A stretch of 64,000 nt of DNA from an uncultured Acidobacteriota bacterium (GTDB lineage Bacteria > Acidobacteriota > Blastocatellia > Pyrinomonadales > Pyrinomonadaceae). The stretch covers positions 62,001-126,000 of the forward strand of contig CALMAH010000015.1 in assembly GCA_937859595.1 (NCBI GenBank), read 5' to 3'. The notes under the pieces are model-generated. The model was not told where the DNA came from. It saw nothing but the letters and a program-made list of their open reading frames with translations, and did not search any database. Both the position numbers and the translations under genes were made by a program. Below, one piece after another: positions 51,968 through 56,717 of the stretch. The first letter of the stretch is position 1. Every line of letters starts with the position of its first letter.

Positions 51968-53857
51968 TTAGTTACGGAACTTATCTTTAGGCTGGACGGC
52001 CGTCAAATGCACCAAAACGGTTGAAAGAGCCGCAGGAGTTAGTCCGGCGATCGACCTCACCTGGGCGAAATTTCTTGGCCGCGCCCGTTCCAATCGTTCT
52101 TTCATTTCAATTGAGAGCCCGCTTATGGATTCAAAATCAAAACTCTCCGGCACTCTTAGCGCGTCGTGGTGATTCACCCGTTCTGTCGCCGCCCTCTGTT
52201 TCTCTATGTAGCCGGCATAGAGAGTATCGGCGAGGGCGGTCTCAAGGTCCGCTTCAGTCACTTCTGATCTGATCTCCTCTGGCAGGAGCCTGTAAACAAG
52301 GTCCGCCTTCACCCCCTGACGCATTGCAAGCTGCGAGAGTCCGAACGAATCTCCAAGGTCCGCACCCAGTAGCTGCGAAACCGCCGCATACTCAACCGAG
52401 GACCTTTTGAACCGTCTCTCGTCAAGTGCATTTCTAAGTCTGGCCAATCGATCTCTTTTCCGATTGAACCTCTCCCAATCGATCTCACCAACTAACCCTG
52501 CTTCCCGCCCTTTCGGTGAAAGCCTTTGGTCGGCGTTGTCGTGCCTCAGTGTCAGCCGAGCCTCTGCCCGCGACGTAAACAGCCTGTAAGGTTCATCCAC
52601 CCCGTGCCTGATGAGGTCGTCCACGAGAACTCCGATATAGGCCTCATCTCGTTGTAAAATAAGGGGTTTACGGTCCGATACGTAGTACGCTGCATTGATC
52701 CCGGCCATCAACCCTTGGCAGGCGGCTTCTTCATATCCCGTAGTACCGTTTATCTGCCCGGCGAGAAACAGTCCCCGCATTCGGGTTGACCCCATGGTAG
52801 GCTGCATCTCGCGCGGGTCAACAAAGTCGTACTCTATGGCATACCCCGGACGGATGATCTGAACCTCCTCGAATCCGGGGATCATCCGCAACAGTTCAAG
52901 CTGCAAGGTCGATGGCAACGAGGTTGAAAAACCATTCAGATAGACCTCATTCGTGCTATAACCTTCGGGTTCCAGAAAGAGTTGGTGTCGGTCCTTGTCC
53001 GCAAATTTGACCACCTTGTCCTCTATTGACGGGCAATATCTGGGCCCTACACCCTTGATCTTTCCCGAATAGAGAGGCGATTGATGAAGATTGTCGCGGA
53101 TCGCCTGGTGAAGCCGGGCACTTGTATATCCGATAAAACACTGAATCTGCGGCTGGTCGATCTTTTCCGTGGCAAAGGAAAATGCCACCGGCTTTTCATC
53201 GGGCGGCTGCGGTTCAAAGGCGTCCCAGTCTATCGTTCGCCCATCTAGCCGCGGCGGCGTACCTGTTTTCAAACGACCAACGGGAAAACCGTGTCTCTTC
53301 AGGGACTCGGCCAGCTCAATCGACGCAGGCTCGCCGGCACGCCCCGCCGAAGACGTCTCCTTGCCTGTATGGATAGTACCGTTCAGAAATGTCCCTGTCG
53401 CGATTACGACCGCCTTTGCTGAAAACCTTCTTGTGTCCTGAAGCTGAACTCCTATAACACTAGTGTTTTCAATAATTAGATCGGTAACCACACCCTGCCT
53501 CAAGTGGAGATCAGGCGTGGCTTCAAGAACGCGGCGCATTTCCGTCCGATAGAGGCTGCGGTCGGCCTGTGCACGGGGCGACTGTACCGCGGGCCCTCGG
53601 GATCGGTTGAGCAAGCGAAACTGAATTCCCGTACGGTCGATAACTCGTCCCATGATTCCGCCAAGTGCGTCGATCTCTCTGACTACATGGCCTTTTGCTA
53701 TTCCACCAACTGCAGGATTACACGACATTTGCCCGATCAGATCGAGGTTGATGGTAACGAGAGCGGTCCGTGCACCAAGGCGCGCCGCGGCCGAGGCCGC
53801 TTCGCAGCCGGCATGCCCTGCACCGATCACTATCACATCAAACTTCTCGTCAAACAT
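51968..53857 (-). CDS. mnmG: tRNA uridine 5-carboxymethylaminomethyl modification enzyme MnmG
   Basis: MnmG (GidA) works with MnmE on uridine 34 of several tRNAs; mnmA for the 2-thio step is also in this window. The 629-residue protein has the FAD motif DVIVIGAGHAGCEAASAAARLG, then MSCNPAVGGIAKGHVVREIDALGG, CIGYTS-like CFIGYTSARLHQAI and GYIEKQ near the C-terminus. It heads the mnmG-parA-parB series but the usual rsmG between mnmG and parA is missing. Confidence 0.97.
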   Translation of the reverse strand: MFDEKFDVIVIGAGHAGCEAASAAARLGARTALVTINLDLIGQMSCNPAVGGIAKGHVVREIDALGGIMGRVIDRTGIQFRLLNRSRGPAVQSPRAQADRSLYRTEMRRVLEATPDLHLRQGVVTDLIIENTSVIGVQLQDTRRFSAKAVVIATGTFLNGTIHTGKETSSAGRAGEPASIELAESLKRHGFPVGRLKTGTPPRLDGRTIDWDAFEPQPPDEKPVAFSFATEKIDQPQIQCFIGYTSARLHQAIRDNLHQSPLYSGKIKGVGPRYCPSIEDKVVKFADKDRHQLFLEPEGYSTNEVYLNGFSTSLPSTLQLELLRMIPGFEEVQIIRPGYAIEYDFVDPREMQPTMGSTRMRGLFLAGQINGTTGYEEAACQGLMAGINAAYYVSDRKPLILQRDEAYIGVLVDDLIRHGVDEPYRLFTSRAEARLTLRHDNADQRLSPKGREAGLVGEIDWERFNRKRDRLARLRNALDERRFKRSSVEYAAVSQLLGADLGDSFGLSQLAMRQGVKADLVYRLLPEEIRSEVTEADLETALADTLYAGYIEKQRAATERVNHHDALRVPESFDFESISGLSIEMKERLERARPRNFAQVRSIAGLTPAALSTVLVHLTAVQPKDKFRN

Positions 53858-53950: not shown

Positions 53951-55462
53951 TCACGCCCACAACGCCTTCAAGGCCGTATCCGCTATGGACTGGTATCGGG
54001 TCAGTTTTACGCGATCGGAGTTCTTGAAGGTTACAAATGCCATGAACCCAAATTCCATCAATTTCTGAAACGCGAGATCCGTAAGAAGGACCTCGGCACA
54101 CGGTTTATAGACCGTTTCGGTTCCTTCTTTATAGACGTGAACCGGCAGCCCGTCAATATCCTGTTTGAGCGCCCGGCCCATTTCCCAGCCGTAGGCCGAG
54201 TAGCTTTCAGCAAGCAGCAGCCCCATCGCGAAACAGGGATTCGCCCAGGCATAAAGCTCGTGAAAAGGTTGGTCGACAAATTCTTCGAAAGAGAAGTTCT
54301 CCAGCGGGTCAGTATCCGCACCGTACGGCAGCCTGGAGAGAAGCCGCGGCATGACCATTCCCAGATATTCAGCCTCTGGCTTGCTGCAGAGGACCTTCCA
54401 CAGCCTTCCGGCCTCCGAGTCTTCCGGTATCTTCCACGAAGCAGGATCATGGCTTTCCGCTAGCGACCGCACCCCAAAAACCTCAGGAAGCATGTACGAG
54501 ATGAATGGCGCGTTCGCCGCCGAAGCCAACTTGCCGACCCTCATCAGCGTTGCGATATCGTCCACATTCGCGTCAAACGTGTAGTTGCCCAGAACTACTG
54601 CAAATGGTTCGCCACCGGGAGTTTCGATCGTGTCATTTATCAGATGACGGAACAACGTGGTCTCCGATAAACTATTGGCACCCTTAAGGTTATCTGCAAG
54701 CTCATCTTTTGAAATATCGAGGAGATATATCTTCAGATCGGTCGAGGTCTCGATCCTGCGGACCATAGAGAACAGGCCGCGCCAAGTTGCCTCGAGCTCC
54801 TTAAACCGCCTGTCGTGGAGTATTCCCCGCATCAGACCGGAAGTCGCCGCGTCCACCGCCGCGATCATCCGTGTCTGTTCGTCATCGTCAACAGACACCA
54901 GATGCGGACGGACAATTTCGTTCACTAGATCTGCTATGTCGCGCGACAGCTCAGGCTTCGGTGCCGCACCGCCTCCGGTGGGCGTCGTGAGTATTGCGTC
55001 TAGCAAGTTGTCTGGAAGAGGGGCTTCAGGTGTAGTCTCTTCGGAACTCGCCGTCGGCGCCTTTTCTTCCGCTGCGGTGACATCGAACCGCTCGCGAACC
55101 TCTGTGGCGGCGGAATAAAATGTCTCCTCGCTTTTCAATCGCTTTCTCAATTCACGAAGTTCCAAAAAGATCGGCACCCGAGCAAATATCTGGTCCGGAT
55201 GCATGTCGTCCAGGCTTCGGAACTCAAGTCCGAGAACACTGTCGCCGTACTCAAGTTCTAGGCGGACGCCCAGCTTTTCTATGGTCCCGTCAAAATTATC
55301 GCGGTCGATCTCGATCAGGCGTCTGTCGGAAACCGGCCACCGTTCGGCATCTCCAGCAAGATCGCCAAGGACTAAGATCTTGAACGGGGGCTCTTCGACT
55401 ATTCCGGTTCTTTGTGATTCAAGCGTAAAGAGGGCTTCCAGGTTTTCTTCCGTCGGGGGCAT
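53951..55462 (-). CDS. TssB-TssC-like contractile sheath fusion protein
   Basis: A 503-residue protein. Residues about 25-125 resemble the sheath small subunit (FKILVLGDLAG, RLIEIDRDNFDGTIEKLGVRLEL, EFRSLDDMHPDQIFARVPIFLELRELRKRL). An acidic, Ala/Pro-rich linker (about 130-175) leads to a TssC-like part: RFKELEATWRGLFSMVRRI, GEPFAVVLGNYTFDANVDDIATLMRVGKLASAANAPFIS and PYGADTDPLENFSFEE. The protein ends soon after the ALKALWA segment, so the C-terminal part of a full TssC is short or missing. No other type VI secretion gene is nearby. It may belong to a remote or reduced contractile system. Confidence 0.82.
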   Translation of the reverse strand: MPPTEENLEALFTLESQRTGIVEEPPFKILVLGDLAGDAERWPVSDRRLIEIDRDNFDGTIEKLGVRLELEYGDSVLGLEFRSLDDMHPDQIFARVPIFLELRELRKRLKSEETFYSAATEVRERFDVTAAEEKAPTASSEETTPEAPLPDNLLDAILTTPTGGGAAPKPELSRDIADLVNEIVRPHLVSVDDDEQTRMIAAVDAATSGLMRGILHDRRFKELEATWRGLFSMVRRIETSTDLKIYLLDISKDELADNLKGANSLSETTLFRHLINDTIETPGGEPFAVVLGNYTFDANVDDIATLMRVGKLASAANAPFISYMLPEVFGVRSLAESHDPASWKIPEDSEAGRLWKVLCSKPEAEYLGMVMPRLLSRLPYGADTDPLENFSFEEFVDQPFHELYAWANPCFAMGLLLAESYSAYGWEMGRALKQDIDGLPVHVYKEGTETVYKPCAEVLLTDLAFQKLMEFGFMAFVTFKNSDRVKLTRYQSIADTALKALWA

Positions 55463-55572: not shown

Positions 55573-55953
55573 CTAGCTGTCCGCGGTAAGTGCCCTGCGG
55601 AGAAAGGCGTTCTGTTCCTCGCCAAGTCCAAGGAACTTCAGGCCAAAGCCGAATCCTTCGAGAACATATGCGATCTCACCTTTGAAGCTGATAGTCGTCC
55701 CGTCGCGGTCCTTAAGTTCGAACGTCACAATTTCGCCGACCCTGAAGTTAGAGATCGATTCGACATAGCAGCCACCAAAACTCAGGTCGCTGATACGGGA
55801 TGCCCTGCGGCCGGCCGAGGAATCAAGGATGATCTCGATCGCGACGTTTAGACGATCATTGTTTCGTTCTGGACGCGGCGGTTCACCGATCGACATAAGA
55901 TCTGTAATTATATTCGAATTACTCAATTGTTCGCTAGTGGGCTTACTTAGCAT
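55573..55953 (-). CDS. PilZ-domain protein
   Basis: A single-domain PilZ protein of 126 residues from ATG 55953 (the earlier ATG 55971 adds six). It has DLSFGGCYVESI (D-x-S-x-x-G) and a preceding GRRASRISD, with RPERNNDRLNVAIEII before it. These match PilZ except that a canonical R-x-x-x-R just before the first strand is only weakly visible (RPERNNDR). PilZ proteins usually bind c-di-GMP. It is the nearest gene upstream of the sheath fusion, about 110 bases away. Confidence 0.85.
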   Translation of the reverse strand: MLSKPTSEQLSNSNIITDLMSIGEPPRPERNNDRLNVAIEIILDSSAGRRASRISDLSFGGCYVESISNFRVGEIVTFELKDRDGTTISFKGEIAYVLEGFGFGLKFLGLGEEQNAFLRRALTADS

Positions 55954-56189
55954 ATGTGCATACTTCCGCAAGATCTATGCTTGCGCTTATCAGCGTCGTG
56001 ACTTTTCTCTTCCTTCGACAGCGCCAGTTATTAGATGGTCTATAGTCTCAAACCGTCCGGTTCTCCCAAAAACAGAGCCAGCAAATAGAAAAAGCCGCCT
56101 CTCCGGGCATTCGCCATCTAAGTCGACGAACACCCGGACGATGCGGGCACGAGTTCCGGTCAGCCGATAACCGTCTTATTTGCAATCGG

Positions 56190-56717
56190 TTAGACAGTCT
56201 TTGCCACAGCCTGTTCTTTACCGGCGGTGGCTTTCTTCATCGAAAGCATCAATACCCCGTCCTTGAAGTCGGTTGTCAGAGATCCGTCTTTGACCCGGGA
56301 GGGAAGCGGCAACTCCCGATAGAATCTGGTTCCCCTCCATTCCGAGTAAATGGTACTCTCATCGCTGCCTTTGAGTTCCGAACCGGCACGACCGGTAACG
56401 AACAACTGGGTGTCCTTTACGCTTACCTCGATCTCGTCTGGTGAAAAACCCGCCAAGGCCATGCACACGCTGATTTCATCGTCCGTTTCCTTGATCTCAA
56501 CTGGTACCTTTCTCAGGACCTCGGACTCCGCCCGCATCCAGTCGTCTATCGGCGAGCCTAAGGCCCGTCCACGTTCTTCAAAAAAGCCGAATGCGCGATC
56601 CGAGATCTCTCGGGTTATCTCTTCAAACCGCTCAAACATCTTCTCCATATCAACCAGCATTGGTGACAACGAAAACGTCGGCTTATCACGTTCCATCATT
56701 CTTTTCTCTTTCTCCAT
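56190..56717 (-). CDS. Small heat-shock protein (Hsp20/alpha-crystallin)
   Basis: A 175-residue holdase chaperone. The alpha-crystallin domain spans about residues 70-165: VPVEIKETDDEISVCMALAGFSPDEIEVSVKDTQLFVTG, then FYRELPLPSRVKDGSLTTDFKDGVLMLSMKK with the family's A/G-x-L-like GVLML motif. The N-terminal region is rich in charged residues. A -24/-12 promoter (56776-56792) lies 59 bases before the start, placing it in the sigma-54 stress group of this region. Confidence 0.93.
   Translation of the reverse strand: MEKEKRMMERDKPTFSLSPMLVDMEKMFERFEEITREISDRAFGFFEERGRALGSPIDDWMRAESEVLRKVPVEIKETDDEISVCMALAGFSPDEIEVSVKDTQLFVTGRAGSELKGSDESTIYSEWRGTRFYRELPLPSRVKDGSLTTDFKDGVLMLSMKKATAGKEQAVAKTV

Follow-up and report, generated by a model that had tools for sequence, protein, structure and literature searches.

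What is a gene for a fused bacterial sheath protein doing on its own beside mnmG, far from any of the genes with which sheath genes usually travel? The question is raised by an ORF at 53951-55462 (minus strand) of the window, by which we mean the whole 64,000-nucleotide stretch of Pyrinomonadaceae DNA analysed here. The ORF starts with ATG, is intact with 0 internal stops and encodes a 503-aa protein that reads, from ORF, Pfam and orthologues, as a TssB-TssC(N) fusion without the TssC gpW/gp25 domain. The first-pass annotation had proposed a TssB-TssC fusion through an acidic linker, with a TssC part that lacks its C-terminal segment, and both statements hold: Pfam matches T6SS_VipA at residues 24-114 (E 2e-15) and PF05943, the VipB N-terminal domain, at residues 198-493 (E 9e-70), and finds no match in the 503 residues to PF18945 (VipB_2, gpW/gp25-like domain 1), so that the loss of the TssC C-terminal segment is real. 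Indeed, in the alignment the protein stops at the very boundary where domain 1 would begin. Sixteen PDB sheath chains match the fusion, TssC chains on its second part and TssB chains on its first, and it misses the cut-offs of the NCBIfam equivalog models for TssC (TIGR03355, 235.7 bits vs 271.5) and TssB (TIGR03358, 55 vs 97.25). A frameshift or assembly artefact is ruled out by the orthologues in many independent assemblies, which form one clade, and by a conserved C-terminal tail of their own.

Taken from its N-terminus, the protein opens with a TssB/VipA-like lobe (about residues 22-128; 55079..55399, minus strand), delimited by Pfam, HMM coordinates and alignment with canonical TssB, from which both the N-terminal HKIDRVRPPRV segment and the C-terminal acidic tail are absent; a possible remnant strand is all that is left of the canonical N-terminal segment. 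We take the HKIDRVRPPRV segment of TssB to be the TagJ-binding part and the start of the handshake arm. There follows a mostly disordered acidic linker (residues 129-173; 54944..55078, minus strand), recognised by composition and by a pLDDT < 50 for residues 130-172, which when counted from about residue 111 to 173 (63 residues) holds 13 D/E vs 4 K/R. Within it lies an LLDAIL motif at residues 153-158 (54989..55006, minus strand), placed by HMM coordinates, alignments and a predicted short helix, the motif definition being that of PMC4239648. The TssC N-terminal lobe (residues 174-490; 53993..54943, minus strand), assigned through Pfam and Foldseek, comprises sheath-protomer domains 2 and 3, and the family alignment places a conserved tail where domain 1 would be (53954..53992, minus strand), with the consensus RFQSIADP..LKGRW and near-invariant S492, L498 and W502.

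Is the gene an orphan? Locally the answer is yes, since a search of the window with T6SS seeds found no type VI secretion (T6SS) gene besides the fusion, and no tube, baseplate, spike or membrane gene lies beside it there. For the genome as a whole the answer is no. The window's genome (G000, 3.8 Mb, 98% complete, with Pyrinomonadaceae, Acidobacteriota, as its relatives) carries on contig C14 a canonical cluster of FHA proteins, tssK, tssL, tssM, tagJ, tssA, tssB, tssC, hcp, tssE, tssF, tssG, clpV and PAAR, in which the tssC product (496 aa) has domain 1. The stretch after clpV on C14, where relatives have vgrG, reads N, and the genome's own vgrG is therefore not seen. The first-pass annotation's orphan label thus describes the neighbourhood and not the genome. 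It had also named the grounds on which it would give up its view, namely a complete T6SS cluster in another part of the genome, including tssBC genes of that cluster's own, together with a lack of conservation of the fusion: the cluster is there, but the fusion is conserved.

How closely the gene follows the T6SS can be gauged from a sample of 396 Acidobacteriota genomes, in which 390 reach 90% completeness or more with contamination no higher than 5%. Sixty-six match the query, and 22 of those 66 carry a member of the fusion clade; canonical TssC is found in 22/22 carriers, and the fusion in 0/330 genomes without canonical TssC (Fisher p 3e-19, relatedness ignored). TagJ (PF07024), present in 45 of the 66, is likewise found in 22/22 carriers, and the fusion in 0/21 TagJ-negative T6SS genomes (Fisher p 4e-5 against TagJ); because relatedness is ignored in this test too, both p values are descriptive. 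Since the fusion is absent from 23 of the 45 TagJ-class T6SS genomes, about half, it is not essential. Local gene maps had suggested that relatives without the fusion have no tagJ either; this proved wrong, as tagJ lies elsewhere in those genomes. Within the genus the fusion occurs in 17/27 T6SS-positive vs 1/10 T6SS-negative genomes, the single exception being G029, a 2.5-Mb MAG, 90% complete, with neither TssC nor TagJ. Fourteen further carriers were reached via other loci; canonical TssC is present in 13 of these and TagJ in the 14th, and the Oleiphilaceae carrier has no TagJ. Taken together, a link between the fusion and the T6SS is well supported.

These figures also bear on the suggestion, made in the first-pass annotation, that the gene might be a component of an undescribed contractile apparatus. 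The gene does stand alone in the window and has retained the sheath fold, but a tube, baseplate or membrane gene is not to be found nearby, domain 1, which is needed to build a sheath and fit it to its tube, is missing from every clade member that was scanned, and every carrier of the 396-genome sample has a normal T6SS, as does the window's own genome. With canonical TssC in all 22 carriers, and with distant relatives lying in T6SS clusters or vgrG islands, a structural unit of such a device is very improbable.

Where did the fusion come from, and is it still under selection? Orthologues with 52-65% identity occur in 18/37 genomes of the genus, one as a fragment (G017), and more are found in further members of the family. 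Distant members come from Bryobacterales/Solibacteraceae, other Acidobacteriota, deltaproteobacterial MAGs (Thermodesulfobacteriota, Myxococcota) and one Oleiphilaceae MAG. When a maximum-likelihood tree is built from the TssC N-domain, 40 family proteins make up one clade with support 100/99, on a 0.69 branch from canonical TssC; the family is of single origin, and PF18945 is absent from every clade member scanned with Pfam. Close pairs of the truncated family have dN 0.05-0.14 and dS above 1 where estimable, and dN so far below dS places the fusion under purifying selection. Could it nevertheless be a decaying, functionless tssBC duplicate? It does diverge faster than canonical TssC at the protein level, a point in favour of decay, but one clade spread over several phyla, free of stop codons, with dN far below dS, a conserved C-terminal tail and linker motif of its own, and a gene that nearly all Pyrinomonadaceae carriers have at the mnmG site makes this reading scarcely credible. 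The 594/625-aa fusions of G358/G207 were considered for membership and fall outside the fusion clade in the tree. Three second sheath-like genes close to T6SS clusters (L158:17213-19090, L159:6075-7859, L160:11493-12833) lie outside the main fusion clade; two are fusions of 594-625 aa with long divergent C-termini and one is a 446-aa TssC with domain 1.

What kind of protein, then, has been conserved? The AF2 model, built on a 36-sequence alignment, has a pLDDT of 84.3 and a pTM of 0.80; its helices correspond to those of domains 2 and 3, and residues 130-172 are disordered but for one short helix, 153-159. The helices matching domain 3 are H115-126, H174-184 and H193-215, assigned by order and sequence, not superposition. 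A Foldseek search of the PDB with the model ranks TssC/VipB sheath chains first (E 5e-23). A phage origin was rejected, as a search of a viral structure library gave no significant match (best E 1.9e-3). In P. aeruginosa the inner layer of the sheath is domain 1, which takes strands from the neighbouring TssC C-terminus and the neighbouring TssB N-terminus; domain 2 is a mixed TssB/TssC sheet, and the outer layer contains domain 3, a bundle of three helices, along with the ClpV-targeted TssC N-terminal helix (PMC5807055). The fusion is predicted from its model to keep the domain 2/3 sheath fold without domain 1 and, having lost the part through which protomers are interwoven and which is turned towards the Hcp tube, is probably incompetent to polymerise as a sheath. 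The first-pass annotation's other suggestion, a repurposed sheath fold, is accordingly well served by a conserved domain 2/3 fold, a lost domain 1, a single clade and purifying selection.

A protomer of this sort might still act at the end of a real sheath, docking by domain 2/3 on the terminal disc and blocking or stabilising further addition, so as to set length or cap the distal end. Domain 3 helices are predicted in the fusion, and in real sheaths the third of these packs on the heterodimer below (PMC5807055); the fusion is, moreover, confined in the 396-genome sample to TagJ-type T6SSs, and TagJ partners a short TssA, without use of the TagA distal anchor (PMC7896307). Yet the main inter-protomer contacts (domain 1, the TssC C-terminal strand and the TssB N-terminal arm) are either gone or can no longer be recognised, and a cap would have no need of a ClpV-type motif, so that we regard an end piece as unlikely.

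It is this motif that guides our preferred reading. The TssC of one T6SS class carries LLDEII in an N-terminal helix that docks into the N-domain of ClpV (PMC4239648; the docking motif also in PMC5048182, where a peptide of E. coli TssC1 binds its ClpV with a KD of about 26 uM), and LLDAIL at residues 153-158 of the fusion follows the LLDEII pattern and lies where the TssC N-terminus would begin. Across the family, the permissive form LLxx[ILM] occurs in 33/42 linkers, against a mean of 0.5 and a maximum of 4 in shuffled linkers, and the strict form in 31/42, against a shuffled mean of 0.02; most of the 9/42 linkers that are off pattern retain a related LL or IL segment. L154 is invariant across 36 aligned family members, and the rest of the linker beyond the motif aligns poorly. 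Whether the fusion makes up for a ClpV signal missing from canonical TssC was also considered, and ruled out because the carriers' canonical TssC has LLDKIL-type motifs. Nor is there support for the fusion binding TagJ as TssB does, the HKIDRVRPPRV segment being absent. TagJ is usually present where the TssC LLDEII motif is missing, the stated exception being Solibacter, an acidobacterium (PMC4239648). In acidobacterial T6SSs (G000 C14, L003/L004 and relatives) TagJ is often found together with a canonical TssC that bears an LLDxIL motif, a pairing which PMC4239648 had described as almost exclusive of each other, and the presence of both in the same genome widens that exception.

We are confident that the fusion is a T6SS-linked, sheath-derived accessory protein without domain 1. 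More specifically, it may derive from one sheath heterodimer and serve the genome's ordinary TagJ-class T6SS: the TssB and TssC lobes would fold as one chain, keeping domains 2 and 3, which make up the middle and outer layers of a sheath, and the linker helix would resemble the one by which the disassembly ATPase ClpV seizes TssC. Acting in trans as a soluble mimic of a sheath protomer, the fusion could then bind ClpV, and perhaps also the domain 2/3 face of the real sheath, so that ClpV would be recruited, primed or buffered and sheath turnover tuned. A protomer mimic in trans best explains why domain 1 was lost while domains 2/3 and the ClpV-type motif were kept, and we hold this reading as a whole to be almost evenly balanced, with ClpV binding and the direction of the effect being what we infer. 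That ClpV engagement is the main job of the protein is plausible, though we lean somewhat against it. The motif could be an inheritance from the TssC ancestor kept for another reason; LLDKIL is present in this genome's canonical TssC, so ClpV already has its substrate signal; and in Pyrinomonadaceae the fusion sits by mnmG, away from the T6SS.

The neighbourhoods of the gene deserve a closer look. In the window, mnmG (51968..53857, minus strand), then parA and parB, lie downstream of the fusion, which we read as positional context only, and presumably selD, tatA and tatC as well, if we go by names taken from a reading of the sequence. Upstream come genes for a PilZ-domain protein and Hsp20. 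The nearest upstream gene is, as the first-pass annotation had said, the PilZ gene (55573..55971, minus strand), 110 bp from the fusion. In Pyrinomonadaceae and close relatives the fusion lies directly upstream of mnmG-parA-parB in nearly all loci, and in 10 of about 24 Pyrinomonadaceae-type carrier loci a PilZ gene lies immediately upstream on the same strand; neither the fusion nor a PilZ gene was found at the 18 fusion-less mnmG loci of relatives, where mnmG is preceded by mnmE or unrelated genes. By eye, the PilZ protein at 55573-55971 keeps the c-di-GMP motifs RxxxR and DxSxxG. The Hsp20 protein (56190-56717) has a DUF2934 segment ahead of its alpha-crystallin domain.

Outside the Pyrinomonadaceae/Blastocatellaceae branch, T6SS or vgrG linkage is the rule for 11 of 15 members (L018, L019, L020 and L161 being the others), whereas the window's own lineage, with its mnmG site, does not show it. 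L070 has the order tssB-tssC-tssE-tssF-tssG-clpV-233aa-FUSION-152aa-vgrG, and L040 is alike; the fusion lies between divergent tssB and tssK in L151, two genes ahead of tagJ-tssA-tssB-tssC in L152, next to vgrG after clpV in L155, L156 and L157, in vgrG islands in L021 and L022, and within about 10 kb of vgrG in L153 and L154. A PF00375 sodium:dicarboxylate symporter gene follows the fusion in two distant genomes (L125:10750-12066 and L152:5247-6518), which may be chance.

The frequent vicinity of vgrG also fits a spike or effector role. The fusion might be a placeholder or loader for VgrG/PAAR/effector spikes that retains an intermediate of the baseplate or spike until displaced by the real component, by analogy with TvpC, a published VgrG paralogue without the Gp27 domain (PMC13373197). 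Locations in vgrG or effector islands in L021, L022, L040, L070, L155, L156 and L157 suit this idea, as does the DUF2169 (TvpA-type) adaptor in the L022 island, but no vgrG was seen adjoining the gene in the 25-member Pyrinomonadaceae/Blastocatellaceae branch, the gene is near tssK or tagJ in L151 and L152, and the gene was not seen to be accompanied by any one effector or PAAR family. We regard a loader as unlikely, on a par with an end piece, and continue to favour a soluble protomer mimic acting on ClpV.

Is there any precedent for such a protein? Like canonical TssB/TssC (VipA/VipB), the fusion has the VipA and VipB-N folds, the domain 2/3 helices and an LLDEII-type motif at the start of its TssC part, but it is a single chain, has neither domain 1, the TssC C-terminal donor strand nor the canonical TssB N-terminal arm, and forms a separate clade. 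The closest precedent is ImpD/TssC40 of Agrobacterium tumefaciens, a second TssC that is required and non-redundant in a T6SS with TagJ (PMC3702570); it too is a second sheath homologue of a TagJ-containing T6SS, but is encoded inside the T6SS cluster. On the tree this type is represented by L033:12060, a second TssC that appears ImpD-like; it retains VipB_2, carries no TssB lobe and branches outside the fusion clade. TagJ/HsiE1 (ImpE) resembles the fusion in being an accessory tied to ClpV and the sheath, and co-occurs with it, but is an unrelated protein that binds the TssB N-terminus, a segment absent from the fusion (PMC4239648). TvpC is likewise a structural paralogue minus its polymerisation domain, but is derived from VgrG, not from the sheath, and works in a spike pre-complex (PMC13373197). 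Full-length single-chain TssB-TssC proteins are found in Oceanospirillaceae and relatives (L048:9896-11860, L049:2226-4169, L053:9917-11878, L058:8028-9977, L076:9917-11860); these chains of 647-654 aa keep domain 1, stand at the head of the T6SS cluster and are the only sheath gene found in 4/5 genomes. They share with the truncated family the single ORF, but represent an independent fusion event (100/99). In the open-access literature, with subscription papers and preprints set aside, we found no description of a TssB-TssC fusion or of a sheath homologue without domain 1, and the fusion, which some soil and sediment bacteria with a T6SS make, is probably a sheath-derived accessory, a regulator or adaptor of the known machine that has so far gone undescribed.

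A bolder and rather doubtful proposal is that the family represents a widespread, undescribed class of T6SS regulator, a single-chain protomer without domain 1 that would act in trans, either on ClpV or at the ends of sheaths, to set their length or recycling, and whose gene, in one lineage, has come to lie in the mnmE-mnmG-parAB region beside PilZ, possibly linking sheath turnover to c-di-GMP. Even short of this, the annotation of such genes is corrected, which would otherwise pass for orphan or broken sheath genes. Work on how sheaths are assembled, kept to length and recycled by ClpV has been done mainly in Pseudomonadota with TagA/TagB/TagJ, and our reading of the fusion parallels the recent TvpC finding for VgrG. 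If it is true, a sheath-derived accessory from which the polymerisation domain has gone, and in which a ClpV-type signal has been kept, would be a new way of regulating a contractile machine.
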